Of a stretch of 54,845 nt of DNA, positions 14,583 to 51,187 are shown one piece after another. The notes under the pieces were generated by a model. That model was given only the letters and a program-made list of their open reading frames with translations, was not told where the DNA came from and made no database searches. Positions within the stretch are counted from its first letter, which is position 1; every line of letters begins with the position of its first letter. Location of the stretch: contig JAGI01000002.1 in NCBI GenBank assembly GCA_000526575.1, positions 3,477,501 through 3,532,345 on the forward strand. Reading direction: 5' to 3'. The stretch is from Clostridium sp. 12(A). GTDB taxonomy: Bacteria > Bacillota > Clostridia > Lachnospirales > Lachnospiraceae. The position numbers and the translations under genes were made by a program.

Positions 14583-14858
14583 TTGAAGGAATATATTGAG
14601 GAACGCGCGGTTGCGATCGCCAACTACATCATAGACTATCATGCGACCGTGAGGCAGACAGCGAAGAAGTTTGGTATCTCCAAATCAACGGTACATAAAG
14701 ATGTAACGGACCGCTTAGAACACATCAATCCATCCCTGGCAGCCCGGGCCAGGGTGATCCTGGACATTAACAAGTCCGAGCGCCACATCAGGGGCGGCCT
14801 AGCCACCAAGGAAAAGTATCAACATCGTTTGCAGATGTGCAGTAAAAAGAATTCTTGA
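14583..14858 (+). CDS. spoIIID: Sporulation transcriptional regulator SpoIIID
   Basis: Mother-cell-specific DNA-binding protein that switches gene expression between the sigma-E and sigma-K programmes. The 91-residue product matches SpoIIID along its length: ERAVAIANYIIDYHATVRQTA, then the helix-turn-helix KKFGISKSTVHKDVTDRL (about 28-45), then the basic tail. The start is a TTG at 14583 placed behind AGGGGG; no ATG in a suitable place exists. It is a single-gene unit with its own candidate sigma-E promoter and terminator. Confidence 0.97.
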   Translation: MKEYIEERAVAIANYIIDYHATVRQTAKKFGISKSTVHKDVTDRLEHINPSLAARARVILDINKSERHIRGGLATKEKYQHRLQMCSKKNS

Positions 14859-14875
14859 AAAAATGGGTAGAGGAT

Positions 14876-14923
14876 CAGCCGCTGTCTGAGAAATAGTAGA
14901 CGTTCTCAGTCAGCGGCTGTTTC
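14876..14923 (+). terminator. spoIIID terminator
   Basis: Seventeen-position stem (14876-14892 with 14903-14919, one mismatch) followed by a short T-tract. It ends the spoIIID unit before the next promoter. Confidence 0.8.
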
Positions 14924-14953
14924 CATTCTAAACAAAAATTCACAAAAAATTTG

Positions 14954-14982
14954 TTGACATGAAACTGCAAAATATGTTATTC
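14954..14982 (+). promoter_or_regulatory. Sigma-A-like promoter for the polyamine leader
   Basis: A perfect TTGACA at 14954-14959. The -10 is less clear: TTATTC at 17-nt spacing or TGTTAT at 15-nt spacing. Transcription would begin near 14988-14992, just before the structured RNA. Confidence 0.6.
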
Positions 14983-14989
14983 TTTTTCC

Positions 14990-15281
14990 CAGTATGAAGA
15001 GACATTATCGTTTTCATGCAAATATCGACCACTTCTTATGAAGTTAAGCCCAGACGGACAGGCGGGTCGGCTGCCGAGCGTGGGAAACCACATTATTGAT
15101 TGAGTTAGAAGCTCAAATTTTATAAGTTGATTACTTTATAATCAGTGCAAATGCACATCATCTTGTGAAACGATCAATAATAGCAGGGACAATATATTTG
15201 CTATGTAGACTCGAAAACGATAATTGTCATGAAAAATTGGAGGGCTTCATGCCCGTTTCCATAATCATTCATGAGATTTTC
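14990..15281 (+). ncRNA. Structured leader RNA of unknown class upstream of the polyamine operon
   Basis: About 290 nt without an ORF that fold into a nested architecture visible by eye. A long closing stem pairs 15001-15015 with about 15212-15228 (one bulge). Inside it GCAAATAT (15018-15025) pairs with ATATTTGC, and ATTATTGATTG (15093-15103) pairs with CGATCAATAAT. Small hairpins include ACTTC/GAAGT, a GC-rich domain around CCCAGACGG and CTGCCGAGCG (about 15049-15085), TTGATTA/TAATCAG, and GTGC/GCAC. A perfect terminator follows at 15282. The layout promoter, structured domain, terminator, operon is that of a transcription-attenuating riboswitch. I could not match it to known riboswitches or to T-box, tmRNA, RNase P or SRP RNA. 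A 6S-like RNA is the main alternative. Confidence 0.6.
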
Positions 15282-15314
15282 AGGCAGGTGATGTACGGTC
15301 ACCTGCCTTTTTTG
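15282..15314 (+). terminator. Intrinsic terminator/attenuator before the polyamine operon
   Basis: A perfect 10-bp stem (15282-15291 with 15299-15308), 7-nt loop and a T-run. It sits 63 nt before the decarboxylase gene and directly after the structured RNA, so it either attenuates the operon or ends an independent small RNA. Confidence 0.9.
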
Positions 15315-15376
15315 TGTGTTAAAACGCCCCAAAAGGCGCTTCCCAAGAATGTGACGAAGGAGAGGTAAATTGCCGT

Positions 15377-16825
15377 ATGAACAAAGAAGATCAAAAAAGA
15401 GCGCCGATTTATGAAGCGCTGGAAACATTCAGGAAGAAAAGGGTGGTTCCTTTTGATGTGCCTGGGCATAAAAGGGGAAGGGGAAACCCCGAACTGGCTC
15501 AGCTTTTGGGAGAAAAATGTGTAGGGCTTGATGTTAATTCCATGAAGCCCCTTGATAATTTATGTCACCCGGTATCCGTTATCCGTGATGCAGAAGAGCT
15601 GGCAGCCAGAGCCTTTGGAGCAGCCGATGCTTTTTTAATGGTAGGTGGTACCACTTCAGCGGTTCAGAGCATGATTTTATCTGTCTGTAAGGCAGGGGAT
15701 AAAATCATACTTCCAAGAAATGTTCACAAAAGTGCAATTAACGCACTTGTTATTTGCGGAGCAATTCCTGTTTATGTAAACCCGGAGGTAAACAGTACCT
15801 TAGGTATTTCTCTTGGAATGGAAATCAGCCAGGTGGAGAAGGCTATTATGGAGAATCCGGATGCAGTGGCAGTTCTCGTTAATAATCCCACTTACTATGG
15901 AATCTGCTCCGATATGCGTTCCATCGTAACCTTGGCTCATGCCCATGGAATGAAGGTGCTGGCTGATGAGGCCCACGGTACCCATCTATACTTTGGGAAA
16001 GGACTTCCGGTGTCCGGCATGGCAGCAGGCGCAGATATGGCGGCAGTATCCATGCACAAATCAGGGGGAAGCCTGACACAAAGCTCCATGCTCCTGATCA
16101 ATGAGGGTGTGAATGGGGATTATGTCCGCCAGATCATTAACTTGACTCAGACCACAAGTGCCTCCTATCTCTTATTATCAAGCCTTGATATCTCAAGAAG
16201 GAACTTGGCTCTTCGTGGTGAGGAGTCCTTTCAAAAGGTGGTAGAAATGGCAGAGTATGCCAGGGAAGAGATTAATTCCATCGGGGGATATTATGCGTAT
16301 GGAAGAGATTTAATCAACGGCACCAGCATCTTTGATTATGATGTGACAAAGCTTTCCATCTATACCCTTGGCATCGGTCTTGCCGGCATTGAGGTTTATG
16401 ACCTGCTTCGGGATGAATATGATATTCAGATTGAATTTGGAGATATCTGCAACATTCTGGCTTACATTTCCATCGGGGACAGGATTCAGGATATTGAGCG
16501 CCTCGTAGGTGCTCTGGCTGACATTGAACGGCTTTATAAAAAGGACCGGAGCGGAATGTTATCAGGAGAATACATAGCACCCAAGGTGGAAATTTCTCCT
16601 CAGAAGGCATTTTACTCCAGTAAGGTATCGGTTCCTGTAAAAGAAGCCGCAGGGAAAATCAGCGGAGAATTTGTTATGTGCTATCCTCCGGGAATCCCCA
16701 TCTTAGCACCAGGGGAGAGAATTACAGAGGAAATTGTGGAATATATCATTTACGCAAAAGAAAAGGGATGCTCCATGCAGGGAACAGAAGACCCGGCCGT
16801 GGAACATCTGATGGTACTAAAATAA
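15377..16825 (+). CDS. speA: PLP-dependent arginine decarboxylase (Orn/Lys/Arg decarboxylase, fold type I)
   Basis: Converts arginine to agmatine, the first step of this operon's route to polyamines. The 482-residue protein has VPFDVPGHKRGRGNPE near the N-terminus and the PLP-binding lysine Lys228 in SMHKSGGSLTQSS; DEAHGTH (about 197-203) supplies the PLP-contacting aspartate. The short form without a wing domain is typical of Firmicute SpeA/YaaO-type enzymes. Orn, Lys and Arg enzymes of this fold look alike. Arginine is preferred because the same operon encodes agmatine deiminase and N-carbamoylputrescine amidase. It is the first gene behind the structured leader. Confidence 0.88.
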   Translation: MNKEDQKRAPIYEALETFRKKRVVPFDVPGHKRGRGNPELAQLLGEKCVGLDVNSMKPLDNLCHPVSVIRDAEELAARAFGAADAFLMVGGTTSAVQSMILSVCKAGDKIILPRNVHKSAINALVICGAIPVYVNPEVNSTLGISLGMEISQVEKAIMENPDAVAVLVNNPTYYGICSDMRSIVTLAHAHGMKVLADEAHGTHLYFGKGLPVSGMAAGADMAAVSMHKSGGSLTQSSMLLINEGVNGDYVRQIINLTQTTSASYLLLSSLDISRRNLALRGEESFQKVVEMAEYAREEINSIGGYYAYGRDLINGTSIFDYDVTKLSIYTLGIGLAGIEVYDLLRDEYDIQIEFGDICNILAYISIGDRIQDIERLVGALADIERLYKKDRSGMLSGEYIAPKVEISPQKAFYSSKVSVPVKEAAGKISGEFVMCYPPGIPILAPGERITEEIVEYIIYAKEKGCSMQGTEDPAVEHLMVLK

Positions 16826-16858
16826 AAAAACTTCCATGGAGAGAGGAGAGTGGGAAAG

Positions 16859-17716
16859 ATGGAGATATGGTTTTCTGAACTGCATACTTCAAACGTGAAG
16901 CTTTCTGTCCGGATTGACAAGCAGCTATTTTCCGGGGAAAGTGAATATCAGAGAATCGACGTGTTTGAGTCACAGGAATTTGGAAAATTCGTGGCTTTAG
17001 ACGGAGACATTGTTTTTTCAGAAAAGGATGAATTTATATACGATGAGATGGTGACCCATGTTCCCATGGCAGTTCACCCATGCGTGAAGCGTGTGCTGAT
17101 CATCGGTGGAGGAGACGGCGGCGTAGCCAAGGAGCTGTTACAGTATCCTTCTATTGAATCCATTGATGTGGTTGAGACGGATAAGCTGTTTGTAGACGTG
17201 TGCAGGGACATCTTTCCTGAGGTAGCATGCGGGCTTTCCGATCCAAGGGTTAAGGTCTATTATGACGATGGTCTTCGATTTTTAAGAAATAAAAAAGAGG
17301 AATACGATCTCATTATCAACGATTCCACAGACCCCTTTGGTCATACGGAAGGGCTGTTTACCAAGGAATTTTACGGCAGCTGTTATAAGGCATTAAAAAG
17401 CGATGGAATTATGGTGTATCAGCATGGAAGCCCCTTCTACGATGAAGATGAGGAGGCATGCCGGAGCATGCACCGGAAGGTATACCGTTCCTTCCCCATT
17501 AGCCGGGTATACCAGGCTCATATTCCCACTTGCCCGTCTGGCTACTGGCTCTTTGGCTTTGCATCAAAAAAGTATCACCCAATCAACGATTTTAAACCGG
17601 AAAACTGGAAAAAATTAAAAATAGAGACCTGGTATTATACCGCGAATCTTCATATGGGAGCATTTATGCTGCCAAAATATGTGGAAGATTTACTGGAAGA
17701 GGAGGAAAAAGAATGA
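16859..17716 (+). CDS. speE: Polyamine aminopropyltransferase (spermidine synthase)
   Basis: Transfers an aminopropyl group from decarboxylated S-adenosylmethionine to putrescine. The 285-residue chain shows the nucleotide loop GGGDGG (83-88), the putrescine-loop sequence NDSTDPFG, and the N-terminal beta-stranded part ending in QEFGKFVALDGDIVFSEKDEF. The ATG at 16859 is chosen because GAGAGGAG (16841-16848) is too close to the GTG at 16850. It overlaps the next gene by 4 nt. No S-adenosylmethionine decarboxylase gene, which it needs, is in this window. Confidence 0.93.
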   Translation: MEIWFSELHTSNVKLSVRIDKQLFSGESEYQRIDVFESQEFGKFVALDGDIVFSEKDEFIYDEMVTHVPMAVHPCVKRVLIIGGGDGGVAKELLQYPSIESIDVVETDKLFVDVCRDIFPEVACGLSDPRVKVYYDDGLRFLRNKKEEYDLIINDSTDPFGHTEGLFTKEFYGSCYKALKSDGIMVYQHGSPFYDEDEEACRSMHRKVYRSFPISRVYQAHIPTCPSGYWLFGFASKKYHPINDFKPENWKKLKIETWYYTANLHMGAFMLPKYVEDLLEEEEKE

Positions 17717-18987
17717 GCAGATTATTAGTTATCGGATGTGGAGGCGTTGCTTCCGTAGCAATTCAGAAATGCTGTCAGAACAGCGAGGTGTTTACAGACA
17801 TCTGTATCGCAAGCAGAACCAAGGAAAAATGTGATGCCTTAAAGGAAAAGCTGGAAGGAAAGACAAGCACTAAGATTGAGACTGCAAAGGTCGATGCTGA
17901 CAATGTGGATGAGGTAGTGGAGCTGATCAAATCCTACAATCCGGATGCTGTGTTAAATGTAGCTCTTCCTTATCAGGATTTGACCATCATGGATGCCTGC
18001 TTAAAGGCAGGAGTCCACTACATCGATACCGCTAACTTTGAGCCGGAAAATACCGATGATCCCCAGTGGCGTGAAATCTATGAGAAACGCTGTAAGGACC
18101 TTGGCTTTACCGCTTACTTTGATTATTCCTGGCAGTGGGATTATAAAGAGCGCTTTGAACAGGCCGGACTTACCGCTCTTCTTGGAACCGGCTTTGACCC
18201 AGGCGTTACCAGTGTATATTCTGCTTATGCCTTAAAGCATTATTTTGATGAAATTCATACCATTGATATCTTAGACTGCAACGGCGGCGACCATGGATAT
18301 CCATTTGCGACCAACTTTAACCCGGAAATCAACTTAAGGGAAGTATCTGCAAACGGTTCTTACTGGGAGAACGGCCACTGGGTAGAGACAGAGCCCATGG
18401 AGCTTAAATCCAAATATAACTTCCCGGAGGTTGGAGAAAAGGACATGTACTTACTCCATCACGAGGAAATCGAATCCCTGGCAAAGAACATCCCTGGCGT
18501 AAAACGGATTCGTTTCTTCATGACCTTTGGACAAAGCTATTTAACACACATGAAATGTCTGGAGAATGTAGGCATGCTTTCTACCTCTCCCATACCGTTT
18601 AATGGACAGGAGATCGTTCCCATTCAGTTTTTAAAGGCTCTGTTACCAGATCCTGCGTCTCTGGGACCAAGAACCGTTGGAAAGACAAACATCGGCTGTA
18701 TCTTCACAGGAGTGAAAGATGGGAAGGAAAAGACCATCTACATCTACAACGTATGTGACCATCAGGAATGCTACAAAGAGGTGGAGTCTCAGGCCATTTC
18801 TTATACCACCGGAGTTCCAGCTATGATCGGTTCCATGATGTTAGTGACCGGACAGTGGAGAAAGCCTGGTGTATTCAATGTGGAAGAGTTTGATCCAGAT
18901 CCATACATGGAGGCATTGAACAAATGGGGCCTTCCATGGGTGGTTTGTGAAGACCCGGAAACTGTTACAGTATGGAAAGCGGAATAA
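17713..18987 (+). CDS. Carboxynorspermidine/carboxyspermidine dehydrogenase (saccharopine dehydrogenase family)
   Basis: Condenses aspartate semialdehyde with a diamine and reduces the imine, giving carboxyspermidine (with putrescine) or carboxynorspermidine (with diaminopropane). The NAD(P)-binding Rossmann motif is VIGCGGVASVA at residues 5-15, and the 424-residue length and C-terminal domain match the saccharopine dehydrogenase-like CANSDH/CASDH branch. It starts inside the stop region of speE (ATGA overlap) and is followed directly by its partner decarboxylase. Since the operon makes putrescine, carboxyspermidine is the likelier product. Confidence 0.92.
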   Translation: MSRLLVIGCGGVASVAIQKCCQNSEVFTDICIASRTKEKCDALKEKLEGKTSTKIETAKVDADNVDEVVELIKSYNPDAVLNVALPYQDLTIMDACLKAGVHYIDTANFEPENTDDPQWREIYEKRCKDLGFTAYFDYSWQWDYKERFEQAGLTALLGTGFDPGVTSVYSAYALKHYFDEIHTIDILDCNGGDHGYPFATNFNPEINLREVSANGSYWENGHWVETEPMELKSKYNFPEVGEKDMYLLHHEEIESLAKNIPGVKRIRFFMTFGQSYLTHMKCLENVGMLSTSPIPFNGQEIVPIQFLKALLPDPASLGPRTVGKTNIGCIFTGVKDGKEKTIYIYNVCDHQECYKEVESQAISYTTGVPAMIGSMMLVTGQWRKPGVFNVEEFDPDPYMEALNKWGLPWVVCEDPETVTVWKAE

Positions 18988-18990
18988 GTG

Positions 18991-20112
18991 ATGAGAATAG
19001 AAGATTTAAAGACTCCCTGCTATGTGGTTGATGAAGGGAAACTGGAAGAGAATTTAAAGGTGTTAAAGCGGGTGAAGGATAATACCGGCTGTACCATTCT
19101 TTTAGCCCAGAAAGCATTTTCCTGTTTTGCCGAATACCCTCTCATTGGGAAATACATCGACGGGACCACGGCCAGCGGACTGTTTGAAGCCAGGCTTGGG
19201 AAAGAGGAGATGGGACTGGAAAACCATGTGTTTGCTCCTGCTTATAAGGAAGAGGATGTGAAGGAGCTTGTTAAGATCTGTGACCATATGATATTTAACT
19301 CCTTTTCTCAGCTGGAGAAGCACAAGGATTCTTTGGAAGGTGTGAGTGTGGGCATGCGGATCAATCCGGAATGCTCCACTCAGGAGGATCATGCCATTTA
19401 CGATCCTTGCGCTCCGGGCTCCAGACTTGGAGTTACGGCAGAGAACTTTAAGGAAGAATGGCTGCCTTACCTTTCCGGCCTTCATTTCCATACTTTATGT
19501 GAGCAGAACTCTGATGACTTAAAAAAGACATTGGATGCGGTGGAAGAAAAGTTTGGTAAGTACTTAATGGGCCTTTCCTGGCTGAACATGGGAGGCGGAC
19601 ACCACATCACCAGAGAGGATTATGATTTAGAGCTTCTGGAATCCTGCATTAGACACATGCAGGATCAGTATGGAGTTAAAGTTTATTTAGAGCCAGGAGA
19701 AGCGGTGGCATTAAACGCCGGATATCTGGTGACAGAGGTTATGGATGTGGTAGACAATGGAATAAAGACTCTGATCTTAGATGCTTCTGCTTCCTGCCAT
19801 ATGCCCGATGTGTTGGAAATGCCTTATCGTCCGCCTCTTAAGGACAGCGGGCAACCAGGAGAAAAGGCCTACACATACCGCCTTTCTTCCTGCACCTGTC
19901 TGGCTGGAGACGTGATCGGAGATTATTCCTTTGACCAGGAGATTAAGCCGGGAGACAAGCTTTATTTTATGGACATGGCCATCTATTCCATGGTAAAAAA
20001 TAATACCTTTAACGGGATGCCCCTCCCTTCCATTGCAGTTATGGATCAGACTGGGGAATGCCGTGTGGTAAAAGAATTTGGATACGAAGATTTTAAAAAC
20101 AGATTGTCATAA
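18991..20112 (+). CDS. nspC: Carboxynorspermidine/carboxyspermidine decarboxylase
   Basis: PLP enzyme of the alanine-racemase fold that decarboxylates carboxyspermidine to spermidine. The PLP lysine is Lys41 in LLAQKAFS; MGGGHHI (about 205) binds phosphate, and SSCTCLAGDVIGDY carries the substrate-side cysteine and aspartate typical of fold-III basic amino acid decarboxylases. Start choice: GTG at 18988 follows the previous stop directly, but the adjacent ATG at 18991 gives the usual MRIEDLKTPCYV start. It has no strong Shine-Dalgarno and is probably coupled to the upstream gene. Confidence 0.93.
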   Translation: MRIEDLKTPCYVVDEGKLEENLKVLKRVKDNTGCTILLAQKAFSCFAEYPLIGKYIDGTTASGLFEARLGKEEMGLENHVFAPAYKEEDVKELVKICDHMIFNSFSQLEKHKDSLEGVSVGMRINPECSTQEDHAIYDPCAPGSRLGVTAENFKEEWLPYLSGLHFHTLCEQNSDDLKKTLDAVEEKFGKYLMGLSWLNMGGGHHITREDYDLELLESCIRHMQDQYGVKVYLEPGEAVALNAGYLVTEVMDVVDNGIKTLILDASASCHMPDVLEMPYRPPLKDSGQPGEKAYTYRLSSCTCLAGDVIGDYSFDQEIKPGDKLYFMDMAIYSMVKNNTFNGMPLPSIAVMDQTGECRVVKEFGYEDFKNRLS

Positions 20113-20138
20113 GACCATAAAGTAAGAGGATAAGAATG

Positions 20139-21296
20139 ATGAAACGACTGACAAGTCTTCCGGCAGAGGACGGATTTTATATGCCAGGAGAATTTGAGCC
20201 TCATGACGGCTGTATCATGATATGGCCGAAAAGGCCGGGATCCTGGCCCTTTGATGCCAGAGAAGCCAGAAAGGCATTTGTGAAGATTGCAGAGGCCATT
20301 GCAGACAGTGAGCATGTGATCATGCTGGCAGAAGAAGAGACAATAGACTCTGCCAGGGAGATGCTTTCTGACCGGATCGAGGTGGTTCTTATGGAGTCTG
20401 ATGATGCCTGGGCAAGGGATACAGGCCCTACCTTTGTAAGAAACCATAATGGGCAGGTCAGGGGAGTTGACTGGCAGTTTAATGCCTGGGGCGGGGAGTA
20501 TGACGGCCTTTATGCGGACTGGAAAAAGGATGAGCTTTTGGCGTCCAGATTCCTGGACAATTACGGGTATGATACCTACGATGCCAGACATTTTGTTTTG
20601 GAAGGTGGCTCCATTCATTCCGATGGGCAGGGAACCATACTGGTAACAGAGCGTTGCCTTTTAAGCCCGGGACGAAATCCTTCCTTAACGAAGCTTGAAA
20701 TTGAAAACCAGCTTAAAAATTATCTGGGAGCGGAAAAGATTATCTGGCTTCCATACGGAATTTATCAGGATGAAACCAATGAGCACGTGGACAATGTCTG
20801 TGCCTTTGTCCGCCCGGGAGAGGTAATCTTAGCCTGGACCGATGATGAGAGCGATCCTCAGTACGAGATGTCTCTTGCAGATTTAAAGGTATTGGAAGAG
20901 GAGACAGACGCGATGGGAAATCATTTTATCGTCCATAAGCTTCCTATTCCCAAAGAGCCTGTTTGTATCAAACCGGAGGAGCTTTGTGGCTTCACCTTTG
21001 AACCGGGAGAGGATACCAGAGAGGCAGGAGAGCGTCTGGCTGCCAGCTATGTGAATTTCTATCTTTCAAACGGCGGGGTCATTGTTCCCCAGTTTGGAGA
21101 TGAGAATGATTCCATGGCTCTTAAGATTTTAGGGGATTGTTTTCCGGAACGAAAGATTTATCCCATATTTGCAAGAGATATTATAGTCGGGGGAGGCAAC
21201 ATTCACTGCATCACCCAGCAGATTCCAAAAGGAGACGTGCATGAGAAAGGTAACAGTCGCAGCGGTTCAGATGAAATGCTGTCAGGACATCAATGA
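20139..21296 (+). CDS. aguA: Agmatine deiminase
   Basis: Hydrolyses agmatine to N-carbamoylputrescine and ammonia. The nucleophile is in GGGNIHC; starting at the second of two adjacent ATGs makes it Cys357, the family's classical number. Other family residues: [11 protein letters not shown] at the N-terminus, [13 protein letters not shown] (substrate aspartates), [11 protein letters not shown] and DETNEHVDN. Most AguA proteins end soon after the cysteine motif ([10 protein letters not shown]). Here the frame runs on about 19 more residues, so its stop lies 56 nt inside the next gene. The added tail looks like read-through of aguB coding sequence and may have no function of its own. Confidence 0.95.
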
Positions 21297-22119
21297 GAAT
21301 ATAGCCAGGGCTGAAGAACTGGTCAGGCAGGCAGCAGGAGAAGGTGCCAACGTGATTCTTCTTCCTGAGCTGTTTGAGCGCCCTTATTTCTGTCAGGAAC
21401 GGCGGTATGAATATTACGATTATGCAACCACCGTGGAAGAAAATCCTGCCATCGCTCATTTTGCATCCATTGCAAAAGAGCTTTCTGTAGTGCTTCCCAT
21501 CAGCTTTTATGAGCGCTCCGGCAATACCATGTATAACTCAGTGGCAGTTCTTGATGGGGACGGAAGGAATCTGGGGATTTACAGAAAGACCCACATTCCC
21601 GATGATCATTATTATCAGGAGAAATTTTACTTTACGCCGGGAGATACCGGCTTTAAAGTCTTTGATACCTTATATGGCACCATTGGAATCGGCATTTGCT
21701 GGGATCAGTGGTTCCCGGAGACTGCCAGATGTCTGGCCCTTTTAGGGGCTGAGATTATTTTATATCCCACAGCCATTGGAAGTGAGCCGATTCTGGAATG
21801 CGACAGCATGGAGCATTGGAGAAGATGTATGCAGGGCCATGCAGCCTCTAACATCGTGCCTGTCGTTGCAGCAAACCGAATTGGAGAGGAAATAGTCACT
21901 CCGTGCGAAGAAAATGGAAACCAAAGCTCTTCTCTTAAATTTTATGGTTCCTCCTTTCTAACGGACAGCACCGGTGCGTTATTAAAATCGTTTGGCAGGG
22001 ATGAAGAAGGGGTTTTATTAGAAACCTATGATTTTGATCAGATCAAACAGGACAGAAGAAACTGGGGCTTATTCCGGGACCGTAGACCGGAGCAGTATAA
22101 GGCCATTGCAGGAAAGTAA
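21241..22119 (+). CDS. aguB: N-carbamoylputrescine amidase
   Basis: Nitrilase-superfamily hydrolase turning N-carbamoylputrescine into putrescine, CO2 and ammonia. The catalytic triad is visible as Glu43 (LLPELFE), Lys116 (YRKTHIPD) and Cys153 ([10 protein letters not shown]), and the 292-residue length is normal. AAAAGGAG at 21226-21233 precedes the ATG at 21241. The start lies inside aguA, so the two genes overlap by 56 nt. It is the last gene of the polyamine operon. Confidence 0.95.
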
Positions 22120-26140: not shown

Positions 26141-26300
26141 TTCACATAACGGTTTGTCCTGTTATATAATATACTATAGCTCAGCTATGGTATCAACCAA
26201 TCGATGGCGCCAAAACGCATCCAGCTGGTGCTTTAGATAGATGACAGGTTAGCCTGGGCGGTAGTGACGTGATTGCAAGGCGTTATTACCGTTTACATAA
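26141..26300 (+). promoter_or_regulatory. Promoter and structured leader before the GIY-YIG gene
   Basis: TTCACA (26141-26146), an 18-nt spacer and TATAAT (26165-26170) form a likely promoter. Immediately downstream is a 21-nt dyad (26172-26181 with 26183-26192) that could be an operator. Further down two hairpins are visible: GCGCCA/TGGTGC (26207-26231) and a 10-bp stem 26260-26269 with 26281-26290. I cannot assign this leader to a known RNA family. Confidence 0.45.
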
Positions 26301-30757: not shown

Positions 30758-30763
30758 CAACCA

Positions 30764-31000
30764 AAAGACGTTGAAGAGGATTACTAAGTGATGATGTATT
30801 CCAGAGAGAAGGCCATTTGGTGAAAGGCCTTTATACCCCTCATGACCCAACCTACCTCGGAGTCCCGCAGCAAACTGCGGCGCAATTTCCGGCGTTATCG
30901 GATCTAAAAGTGAGCCATTGAATGTATCTTTGGCTAAATTGGGTGGCACCGCCGAGTTGTTCGGTCCCTTTTATAGAGGGAACGGATGGCTCTTTTTTAA
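30764..31000 (+). promoter_or_regulatory. T-box leader of prolyl-tRNA synthetase
   Basis: tRNA-sensing transcription attenuator. The T-box sequence AATTGGGTGGCACCGCC lies at 30937-30953. Stem I carries AGAGAG and the GGTGAAAGG loop segments; the specifier region contains TACCCCTC, offering a proline codon (CCC or CCT). A CCGCAG/CTGCGG hairpin lies in the middle. The terminator pairs about 30954-30970 with 30979-30993 and is followed by T6. Uncharged tRNA-Pro would bind and allow read-through into proS. Confidence 0.95.
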
Positions 31001-50954: not shown

Positions 50955-50983
50955 TTGACATTGATTATAAATAATGTTATACT
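50955..50983 (+). promoter_or_regulatory. Promoter of rplJ-rplL
   Basis: TTGACA (50955-50960), 17 nt, TATACT (50978-50983), just after the rplA stop. Confidence 0.85.
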
Positions 50984-50989
50984 AACTTA

Positions 50990-51119
50990 GTATTGACTGC
51001 CGAAGACAGCAGGTGCCGTAAGGCATAAGGTGTAAACGCCTGCCGAGGAACATACAAAGATCATTTTTTGTAAATGAATTGTAGACCTCTCTGTCCATTT
51101 TTGGCGGAGAGGTTTTTTC
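50990..51119 (+). promoter_or_regulatory. L10 leader with attenuator
   Basis: The conserved L10-leader pattern is present: CTGCCGAAGACAGCAGGTG, a hairpin with GCCGTAAGGC, then GCCTGCCGAGGAACATAC. It is followed by an intrinsic terminator (51085-51091 with 51107-51113, T6). The L10-L7/L12 complex is known to bind this leader and lower expression of rplJL. Confidence 0.9.
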
Positions 51120-51187
51120 TTTGCGGTTTATACGAGCGGGTTTTGTGGACAACCATGGGACTCAGACTAAACAGGAGGTAAACCATA

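Follow-up and report, generated by a model that had tools for sequence, protein, structure and literature searches.

Within the window, the whole 54,845-nt stretch of Clostridium sp. 12(A) DNA considered here, a structured leader RNA with its own promoter and terminator (14990–15313) lies on the forward strand, 5′ of a polyamine operon. The first gene of this operon (15377–16825) is a speA-like Orn/Lys/Arg decarboxylase (PF01276, 230.5 bits; its NCBIfam matches all fall under cut-off) that probably encodes an arginine decarboxylase (speA), a call made by analogy because aguA and aguB lie downstream and because the pneumococcal SP_0916 has been characterized (PMC7531197, in its accessible portions). 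It is followed on the same strand by speE, a polyamine aminopropyltransferase (16850–17716; PRK00811, 365.5 bits, cut-off 260), a CASDH-like carboxy(nor)spermidine dehydrogenase (17713–18987; NF043000, 418.8 bits, below the cut-off of 800, with Pfam saccharopine dehydrogenase domains), nspC, the carboxy(nor)spermidine decarboxylase or CASDC (18988–20112; TIGR01047, 475.3 bits, cut-off 409), aguA, an agmatine deiminase (20136–21296; TIGR03380, 498.4 bits, cut-off 381.8), and aguB, an N-carbamoylputrescine amidase (21241–22119; TIGR03381, 448.7 bits, cut-off 410). The preliminary description of this DNA had placed the leader in front of arginine decarboxylase and a polyamine operon; the operon is borne out by NCBIfam and Pfam, some members by domain only, and the arginine specificity stands by analogy. 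A search of the same genome for E. coli-type AdoMetDC (SpeD; TIGR03331, the sole AdoMetDC family searched, the B. subtilis type being TIGR03330) returned no match, which points to the carboxyspermidine route. That speE sits in the operon of a genome without a TIGR03331 match poses a puzzle as to the aminopropyl donor, and the same speE-without-AdoMetDC gap has been noted for pneumococcus in the available text of PMC7531197. The gene 5′ of the leader is spoIIID. A hairpin (CAGCCGCTG..CAGCGGCTG, then TTT; 14876–14922) lies 3′ of it, just 5′ of the leader promoter, and is possibly the spoIIID terminator.

The promoter is of the sigma-A type (14954–14983), with TTGACA at 14954–14959, an 18-nt spacer, and TATTCT at 14978–14983 preceded by TG. 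Promoter-type matches occur three times in the window versus 2.7 expected in shuffles, so that a single match is within chance; both hexamers of this one, whose TTGACA had been recognized from the outset, are invariant across all 23 aligned same-genus loci (the 24th, L001, is truncated at a contig end and lies outside the promoter alignment). Transcription is expected to start near 14990. The stretch 14990–15325 folds with −102 kcal/mol (z = −4.75), an energy equaled by none of 100 shuffles. The outer closing helix P0 (15004–15015 with 15213–15224; 12 of 12 pairs in a base-by-base check), in place of which AGAGTC/GACTCT-type outer pairing is predicted in some other clades, encloses the long-range helix P1 (GCAAAUAU/AUAUUUGC; 15018–15025 with 15194–15201; 8 of 8 pairs). 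Within P1, the 5′ domain (15026–15077) comprises P2 (15026–15030 with 15065–15069), P2a (15031–15035 with 15040–15044), P2b (15048–15050 with 15061–15063), and a possible CGG/CCG pseudoknot (15055–15057 with 15074–15076) that is invariant and to which covariation lends no support. Beyond the variable hairpin P4 (15080–15091), the 3′ domain (15092–15180) contains P3 (15094–15100 with 15173–15179; 7 of 7 pairs), P5 (15101–15104 with 15112–15115), P6 (15122–15128 with 15160–15166; 6 of 7 pairs in the window), P7 (15129–15133 with 15139–15143), the weak P8 (15145–15148 with 15153–15156), and a conserved CUUGUGAAA at 15162–15170. The three nested long-range pairings of the preliminary description are thus all present in full as P0, P1, and P3, its coordinates being correct within a few bases. 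A conserved tail (15171–15212) follows the consensus GGUCAAUAAGAGUAGUAAAAGUA..UUUGCUAUAUAGACUC, from which the window copy departs mid-tail; its landmark UUGCUAUAUAGACUC, at three or fewer mismatches, is found at 139 of 195 loci, and several of the loci without it are contig ends, others a clade with a different tail. The leader closes with an intrinsic terminator (15282–15313) that is as perfect as first described, 11 of 11 pairs (15282–15292 with 15298–15308) and then TTTTT; terminator-like sites number 2 against 1.0 expected.

Part of this RNA is already in Rfam. RF02440 (SpF59_sRNA, “ldcC RNA”) matches 15026–15077 with 64.2 bits (gathering score 37.2, E 2.7e-9), so that the initial label “uncharacterised” was too strong; a strong match to a known RNA did turn up, and the known RNA is this same leader. 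The GC-rich stretch 15049–15085 had been put forward as a ligand-binding core, a proposal that stands insofar as the stretch largely overlaps the RF02440 core. Rfam types the family as “Gene; sRNA”, with an entry line that gives neither function nor ligand. The name ldcC echoes a 2017 list of 224 candidate motifs. The 54 positions of RF02440 are the 5′ domain only of an RNA of about 200 nt: conservation among homologues continues well over 100 nt beyond the model, through P1, the 3′ domain, and the conserved tail, and blastn to a Paenibacillus record covered bases 46–223 of the leader. In pneumococcus, F59, by Rfam score the same RNA as the window leader, was mapped between SP0915 and SP0916 (PMC3395615), and its listing, as srn235/F59/Spd_sr49, gives it a span of 327 nt (PMC12323649), according to the accessible parts of both papers. 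It precedes SP_0916, and SP_0918 (speE), SP_0920 (nspC), SP_0921 (aguA), and SP_0922 (aguB) repeat the gene order of the window, an order taken from the available published descriptions.

Homologues are widespread. RF02440 matches 26 of 61 relatives, including all 24 genomes of the genus (the own genome counted), as well as 40 of 391 class genomes and 18 of 398 phylum genomes, with one match per genome and a single copy in the genome under study. Two models were built in this analysis, the full-length R1 and the 3′-domain R2. R1 finds 47 of the 391 class genomes versus the 40 of RF02440, and R2 finds 47 of 391 class and 21 of 358 phylum genomes. Among the matches listed (80 of at least 118), record titles name Bacillus, Paenibacillus, many Clostridia, Acidaminococcus, Phascolarctobacterium, and one Spirochaetes MAG as carriers. 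In this last (L144), the RNA lies 5′ of speD-speA-speE-speB-CASDH, an occurrence for which horizontal transfer or deeper ancestry are possible. No exact match to a sequence pattern was found in viral contigs, nor any blastn match in phages; in the plasmid collection, the one matching record is a 2.7-Mb Paenibacillus replicon (query coverage 52%). For the comparative analyses, loci were collected by RNA sequence, not by genes, and 195 were kept. L034 and L070, whose match lies at another offset close to a contig start, were omitted at first and refetched as L217 and L218, and an Actinomycetes MAG locus (L159) was excluded as a chance match, its sequence being repetitive and coding-looking and its R1 score 11 bits. 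The loci are partly dependent: about 25 come from one genus, the sets overlap, and L017 and L094, whose contigs have equal lengths, seem identical.

The fold is conserved and covaries in several helices, as expected of a transcriptional riboswitch leader. In alignment A1 (49 of 108 candidates, length-restricted, from the 152 of 195 loci carrying all landmarks), 92.6% of cells are paired versus 30–40% in slid controls, a comparison that partly favors its own structure since the nine helices were set by hand from the same sequences. Seventeen pairs changed on both sides (10.0 in shuffles), as did 130 cells (37.2 in shuffles). P2 and P2a covary strongly, and P2b flips from GGC/GCC to GCC/GGC in five of the 49 rows, the window included. 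For P1, each 5′ strand forms a duplex of −11.8 kcal/mol on average with its own 3′ strand versus −8.5 kcal/mol with that of another locus (75 loci; 0 of 5000 permutations as low), in a test that preserves column make-up, not relatedness. The expectation that the long-range stems covary therefore holds for helices including P1, and P3 together with most of P6 hardly varies, so that covariation there speaks neither for nor against. P8, at 58.7% paired, is weak and gains no covariation support. RNAalifold on A1 returns 32 pairs, most of them shared with the hand-set structure, and omits P2b, P7, and P8. An earlier MAFFT alignment, of 78 representatives over their whole length, contained too many gaps (RNAalifold −9.7 kcal/mol, most helices absent) and was replaced by A1; a GAGU/ACUC hairpin in the tail was left out after alignment A2 showed one-sided, uncompensated changes.

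The expression platform turns on a strand shared between two partners. In the window, ACAUCA(U)CUUG at 15155–15165 is complementary to CAGGUGAUGU at 15285–15294, and their pairing as an antiterminator (15155–15160 with 15289–15294 and 15162–15165 with 15285–15288; 10 bp, U15161 bulged) is exclusive with both P6 and the terminator. The finder detected the CUUG strand and a terminator at 143 of 195 loci, 92 of which were kept as non-redundant (75 of these entered the P1 test). Across the 92, the duplex between the terminator arm and the CUUG strand of the same locus averages −15.0 kcal/mol versus −11.8 kcal/mol when permuted (0/10000). When the comparison is made by sliding along each leader, which sets stretches inside one leader against each other and is thus less tied to relatedness (related loci are still non-independent), the terminator 5′ arm pairs best with the CUUG strand in 66 of 92 loci (5.5 expected); by class, the score is 25/35 for speA, 19/28 for speD, 21/25 for potA, and 1/4 for CASDH, in which last group the finder reports a terminator at just 9 of 21 loci. 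A count over six antiterminator columns, in the 75 of 92 loci with CRRG as anchor, gives 294 of 450 cells paired versus 234.5 shuffled (0/2000), a weaker result than the duplex test. Within the genus, 23 loci show no change in the terminator 5′ arm versus 36 in the 3′ arm, the pattern that two partners for the 5′ arm would produce. The sole variable base of the aptamer strand is the predicted bulge, missing in 8 of the 23; the outermost antiterminator pair (15155 with 15294) is lost in 8 of 23, and the aptamer–terminator linker varies, with a mean identity of 0.64.

The leader thus has the order first proposed for it, that of a transcriptional riboswitch, a polyamine-linked cis leader with an attenuator in which terminator and antiterminator exclude each other through an aptamer strand, although energies alone do not favor the antiterminator. 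In nearest-neighbor folding, which is without pseudoknots or tertiary contacts, the forced antiterminator is 1.9–8.0 kcal/mol worse for window transcripts ending at 15290–15304 and about 12 worse when they include the whole terminator; at 15297, the antiterminator pair probability is about 0.003 versus about 0.9 for P6. By the same energies, the CUUG strand is mostly aptamer-paired in 78 of the 92 loci and antiterminator-paired in 12. Antitermination by default is therefore not what energy modeling shows, and an ON resting state is suggested by conservation, not by energies. In the window, moreover, the CUUG strand (−15.1) is narrowly outscored as a partner by a GC-rich stretch of the 5′ domain (−15.7), and two further same-genus representatives show the same preference.

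The linkage to polyamine genes suspected from this one locus holds among its homologues: at 202 of 203 loci, a polyamine gene lies within about 660 nt 3′ of the RNA. Downstream sequence exceeds 260 bp at 186 loci, and at 185 of these a same-strand polyamine gene starts 217–661 nt (median 330) after the core; the sole exception, L082, has a contig that ends after 262 bp, and the 17 extra loci (8 found by R1 only, 2 refetched, 7 by R2 only) all agree. Linkage was scored by tblastn with 14 reference proteins only, and the 9 of 195 loci with 260 bp or less downstream were left out. The first gene at the 185 loci is speA-like in 72, speD in 50, potA in 42, and CASDH in 21. Representatives of speD, potA, and speB score above NCBIfam cut-offs; those of potB, potC, and potD have their own families as best or near-best hits, yet below cut-off. 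Where CASDH comes first, CASDH and CASDC are the genes seen under the control of the RNA. Sampled genomes usually carry a single copy, which suggests that some species use it to control synthesis and others to control import. The genome under study has a PotA-family gene above cut-off that is without a copy of the RNA, which counts against the riboswitch reading set out below.

Considering this architecture together with the gene contexts, the leader probably acts in cis as an OFF riboswitch that terminates transcription in response to a polyamine, most likely spermidine. Once transcription starts near 14990, the RNA would fold into a two-domain aptamer closed by P0/P1, in which the strand 15155–15165 (ACAUCAUCUUG) could pair either within the aptamer (P6/P8) or with the terminator 5′ arm (15285–15294). 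When polyamine is scarce, this strand would capture the terminator arm, and RNA polymerase would read into the operon. With polyamine bound, the aptamer would retain the strand and the terminator (15282–15313) would form, shutting off spermidine synthesis in the case of the window operon, or potABCD uptake in other genomes. The OFF direction is favored because of this wiring and of pneumococcal expression data. In a potABCD deletion mutant, in which putrescine and spermidine are reported to be lower, qRT-PCR gave a 16.9- to 17-fold rise in SP_0916 mRNA and a 14.4-fold rise in speE mRNA (accessible portions of PMC8540371 and PMC4887915, whose near-identical values may be one measurement); the RNA-seq in PMC8540371, in the part of that paper available, does not show the rise. 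If the proposed mechanism is correct, it would explain the published 14- to 17-fold rise of speA/speE on uptake loss seen by qRT-PCR.

Which polyamine, or which related metabolite, would the RNA sense? Spermidine is favored because it is the product or cargo common to the speA, speD, CASDH/CASDC, and potABCD contexts. The pneumococcal data do not single it out, since agmatine is also lower in the potABCD mutant (PMC7531197, in its accessible portions). A riboswitch for another ligand, be it putrescine, agmatine, arginine, SAM, or decarboxylated SAM, is conceivable though rather unlikely: speA yields agmatine and, through later steps, putrescine, speD draws on SAM, and pot transporters carry putrescine too, but only spermidine is common to all four contexts, putrescine being next best, and the CASDH-first loci hold CASDH and CASDC, which lead from putrescine to spermidine. 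Decarboxylated SAM is further disfavored because the genome under study has no match to TIGR03331, the one AdoMetDC family searched. Of the ligands suggested in the preliminary description, a polyamine therefore stands, and arginine, agmatine, and SAM recede because the same RNA precedes potABCD and CASDH/CASDC operons. No ligand for this leader RNA was found in the literature searched, which stopped short of most subscription papers and of the 2017 motif paper, and the words ldc, speA, and spermidine are absent from the texts of PMC11109978 and PMC7266159. A spermidine riboswitch would be expected to change at CUUGUGAAA and the AAGAGUAGUAAAAGU-like stretch when spermidine is added, and much less with putrescine, and the leader with its terminator would offer a defined RNA for direct ligand tests.

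The two domains are separable, and the 3′ domain is the steadier part of the leader. Among the class genomes with RF02440, 39 of 40 also match R2 (in the 40th, G305, the contig stops at the match), and 8 further genomes match R2 only. None of the 15 loci found by R1 or R2 alone (L209–L216, L223–L229), which were chosen because first searches gave no RF02440 match, has one even at E up to 10 with laxer filters, and 14 of them match R2 at E ≤ 2e-5, L216 reaching only 0.096. By eye, some (L210, L216, and L228) retain a diverged 5′ domain and others none. At their most minimal, in L226 and L227, these leaders consist of a promoter-like hexamer pair directly 5′, P1, ACTTGTGAA, GGTCAATAAGAGTAGTAAAAGT (GGTAAATAAGAG.. 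in L226), and the P1 partner; both lack a 5′ domain and are candidates for structure work. The tail is not universal either, as one group of potA leaders has a different tail, and a few loci, such as L223, are without CUUGUGAAA. In a potABCD leader (L215, 3751–4024, minus strand), about 270 nt bounded by inverted repeats (AGCCGAACAG..CTGTTCGGCT) separate the P8 region from the CUUG strand, so that the models match the element in two pieces; the insert looks like a small mobile element within the aptamer. Such separability, with 15 of 15 loci without RF02440 and 14 of them matching the 3′ model, could also mean that the leader is a tandem of two sensors, in which the 5′ (RF02440) and 3′ domains bind different ligands and the 5′ one was lost in some lineages. 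We regard this as unlikely, since the reverse is unseen (every RF02440 class genome but the one at a contig end matches R2) and in the loci read, P1 and a single terminator serve both domains.

The sensor need not be the RNA itself. Terminator/antiterminator architecture is by itself compatible with the same attenuator being governed by a polyamine-responsive RNA-binding protein or by the translation machinery. This alternative is doubtful, as conservation reaches across a fold of several helices and takes in unpaired stretches that never vary, much like that of aptamers, the RNA spans Bacillus, Paenibacillus, Clostridia, Acidaminococcus, Phascolarctobacterium, and a Spirochaetes MAG among the matches listed, and the segment between aptamer and terminator is variable, at a mean identity of 0.64 in the genus. 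An independent, trans-acting small RNA (SpF59) with an incidental place 5′ of the operon is very improbable: the annotation as sRNA (F59/srn235/M7, in the accessible pneumococcal sources) is also what a terminated leader would earn, the window RNA being expected to give a short terminated transcript from its own promoter and terminator, but 202 of 203 loci lie 5′ of a polyamine gene and the aptamer strand follows the terminator arm of its own locus, a match that action in trans would not call for.

We accordingly place the leader in a widespread class of cis-regulatory RNA, in contrast to the sRNA gene of Rfam, on the grounds of its linkage and own-terminator complementarity; its 5′ part is already in Rfam without stated function, and it is not the SAM-I-derived spermidine class. 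The latter, a SAM-I variant that likewise lies 5′ of polyamine biosynthesis genes, binds spermidine, and turns OFF by transcription termination with an antiterminator (Salvail et al. 2023, PMC10853860, in its accessible text), was the first candidate after the literature search and was rejected, as no SAM-family match to Rfam was found in the window at gathering or in 14600–15500 at E up to 10. Only 13 examples of the variant are reported in that text, in contrast to the 40 (RF02440) or 47 (R1) of 391 class genomes with the window RNA. The potE and odc1 motifs are also structured RNAs near polyamine genes, but they belong to other lineages (Veillonella; alphaproteobacteria), odc1 being one hairpin with a pseudoknot and the potE model weakly supported (Brewer et al. 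2021, PMC8632094, in the available portions). With 6S RNA, the alternative raised in the preliminary description, the leader shares a long closing helix around a large interior, but it differs in its cis position and gene linkage, and neither 6S nor a known riboswitch gives an Rfam match at the leader, even at E up to 10.

Polyamine-sensing riboswitches have long been sought. Whether the leader represents a second natural class of spermidine riboswitch, not derived from SAM-I and far more widespread, is in our estimation an even call; it would be modular, with a dispensable 5′ domain, the one that Rfam models, and a 3′ domain as the sensor, which would shrink in some species to about 100 nt made up of P1, CUUGUGAA, and a GGUCAAUAAGAGUAGUAAAAGU-like stretch (L226, L227). 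RF02440 would then model only the dispensable part of its RNA. If it does sense spermidine, the RNA would give gut Clostridia, Bacillales, Negativicutes, and, by annotation, pneumococcus a common polyamine switch; in pneumococcus, polyamine synthesis and transport affect capsule and virulence.

Three further RNAs match elsewhere in the window: a COG2827 RNA (26224–26299), a T-box leader (30762–30972; 97.1 bits, just over the gathering score of 93), and a ribosomal protein L10 leader (50982–51127).
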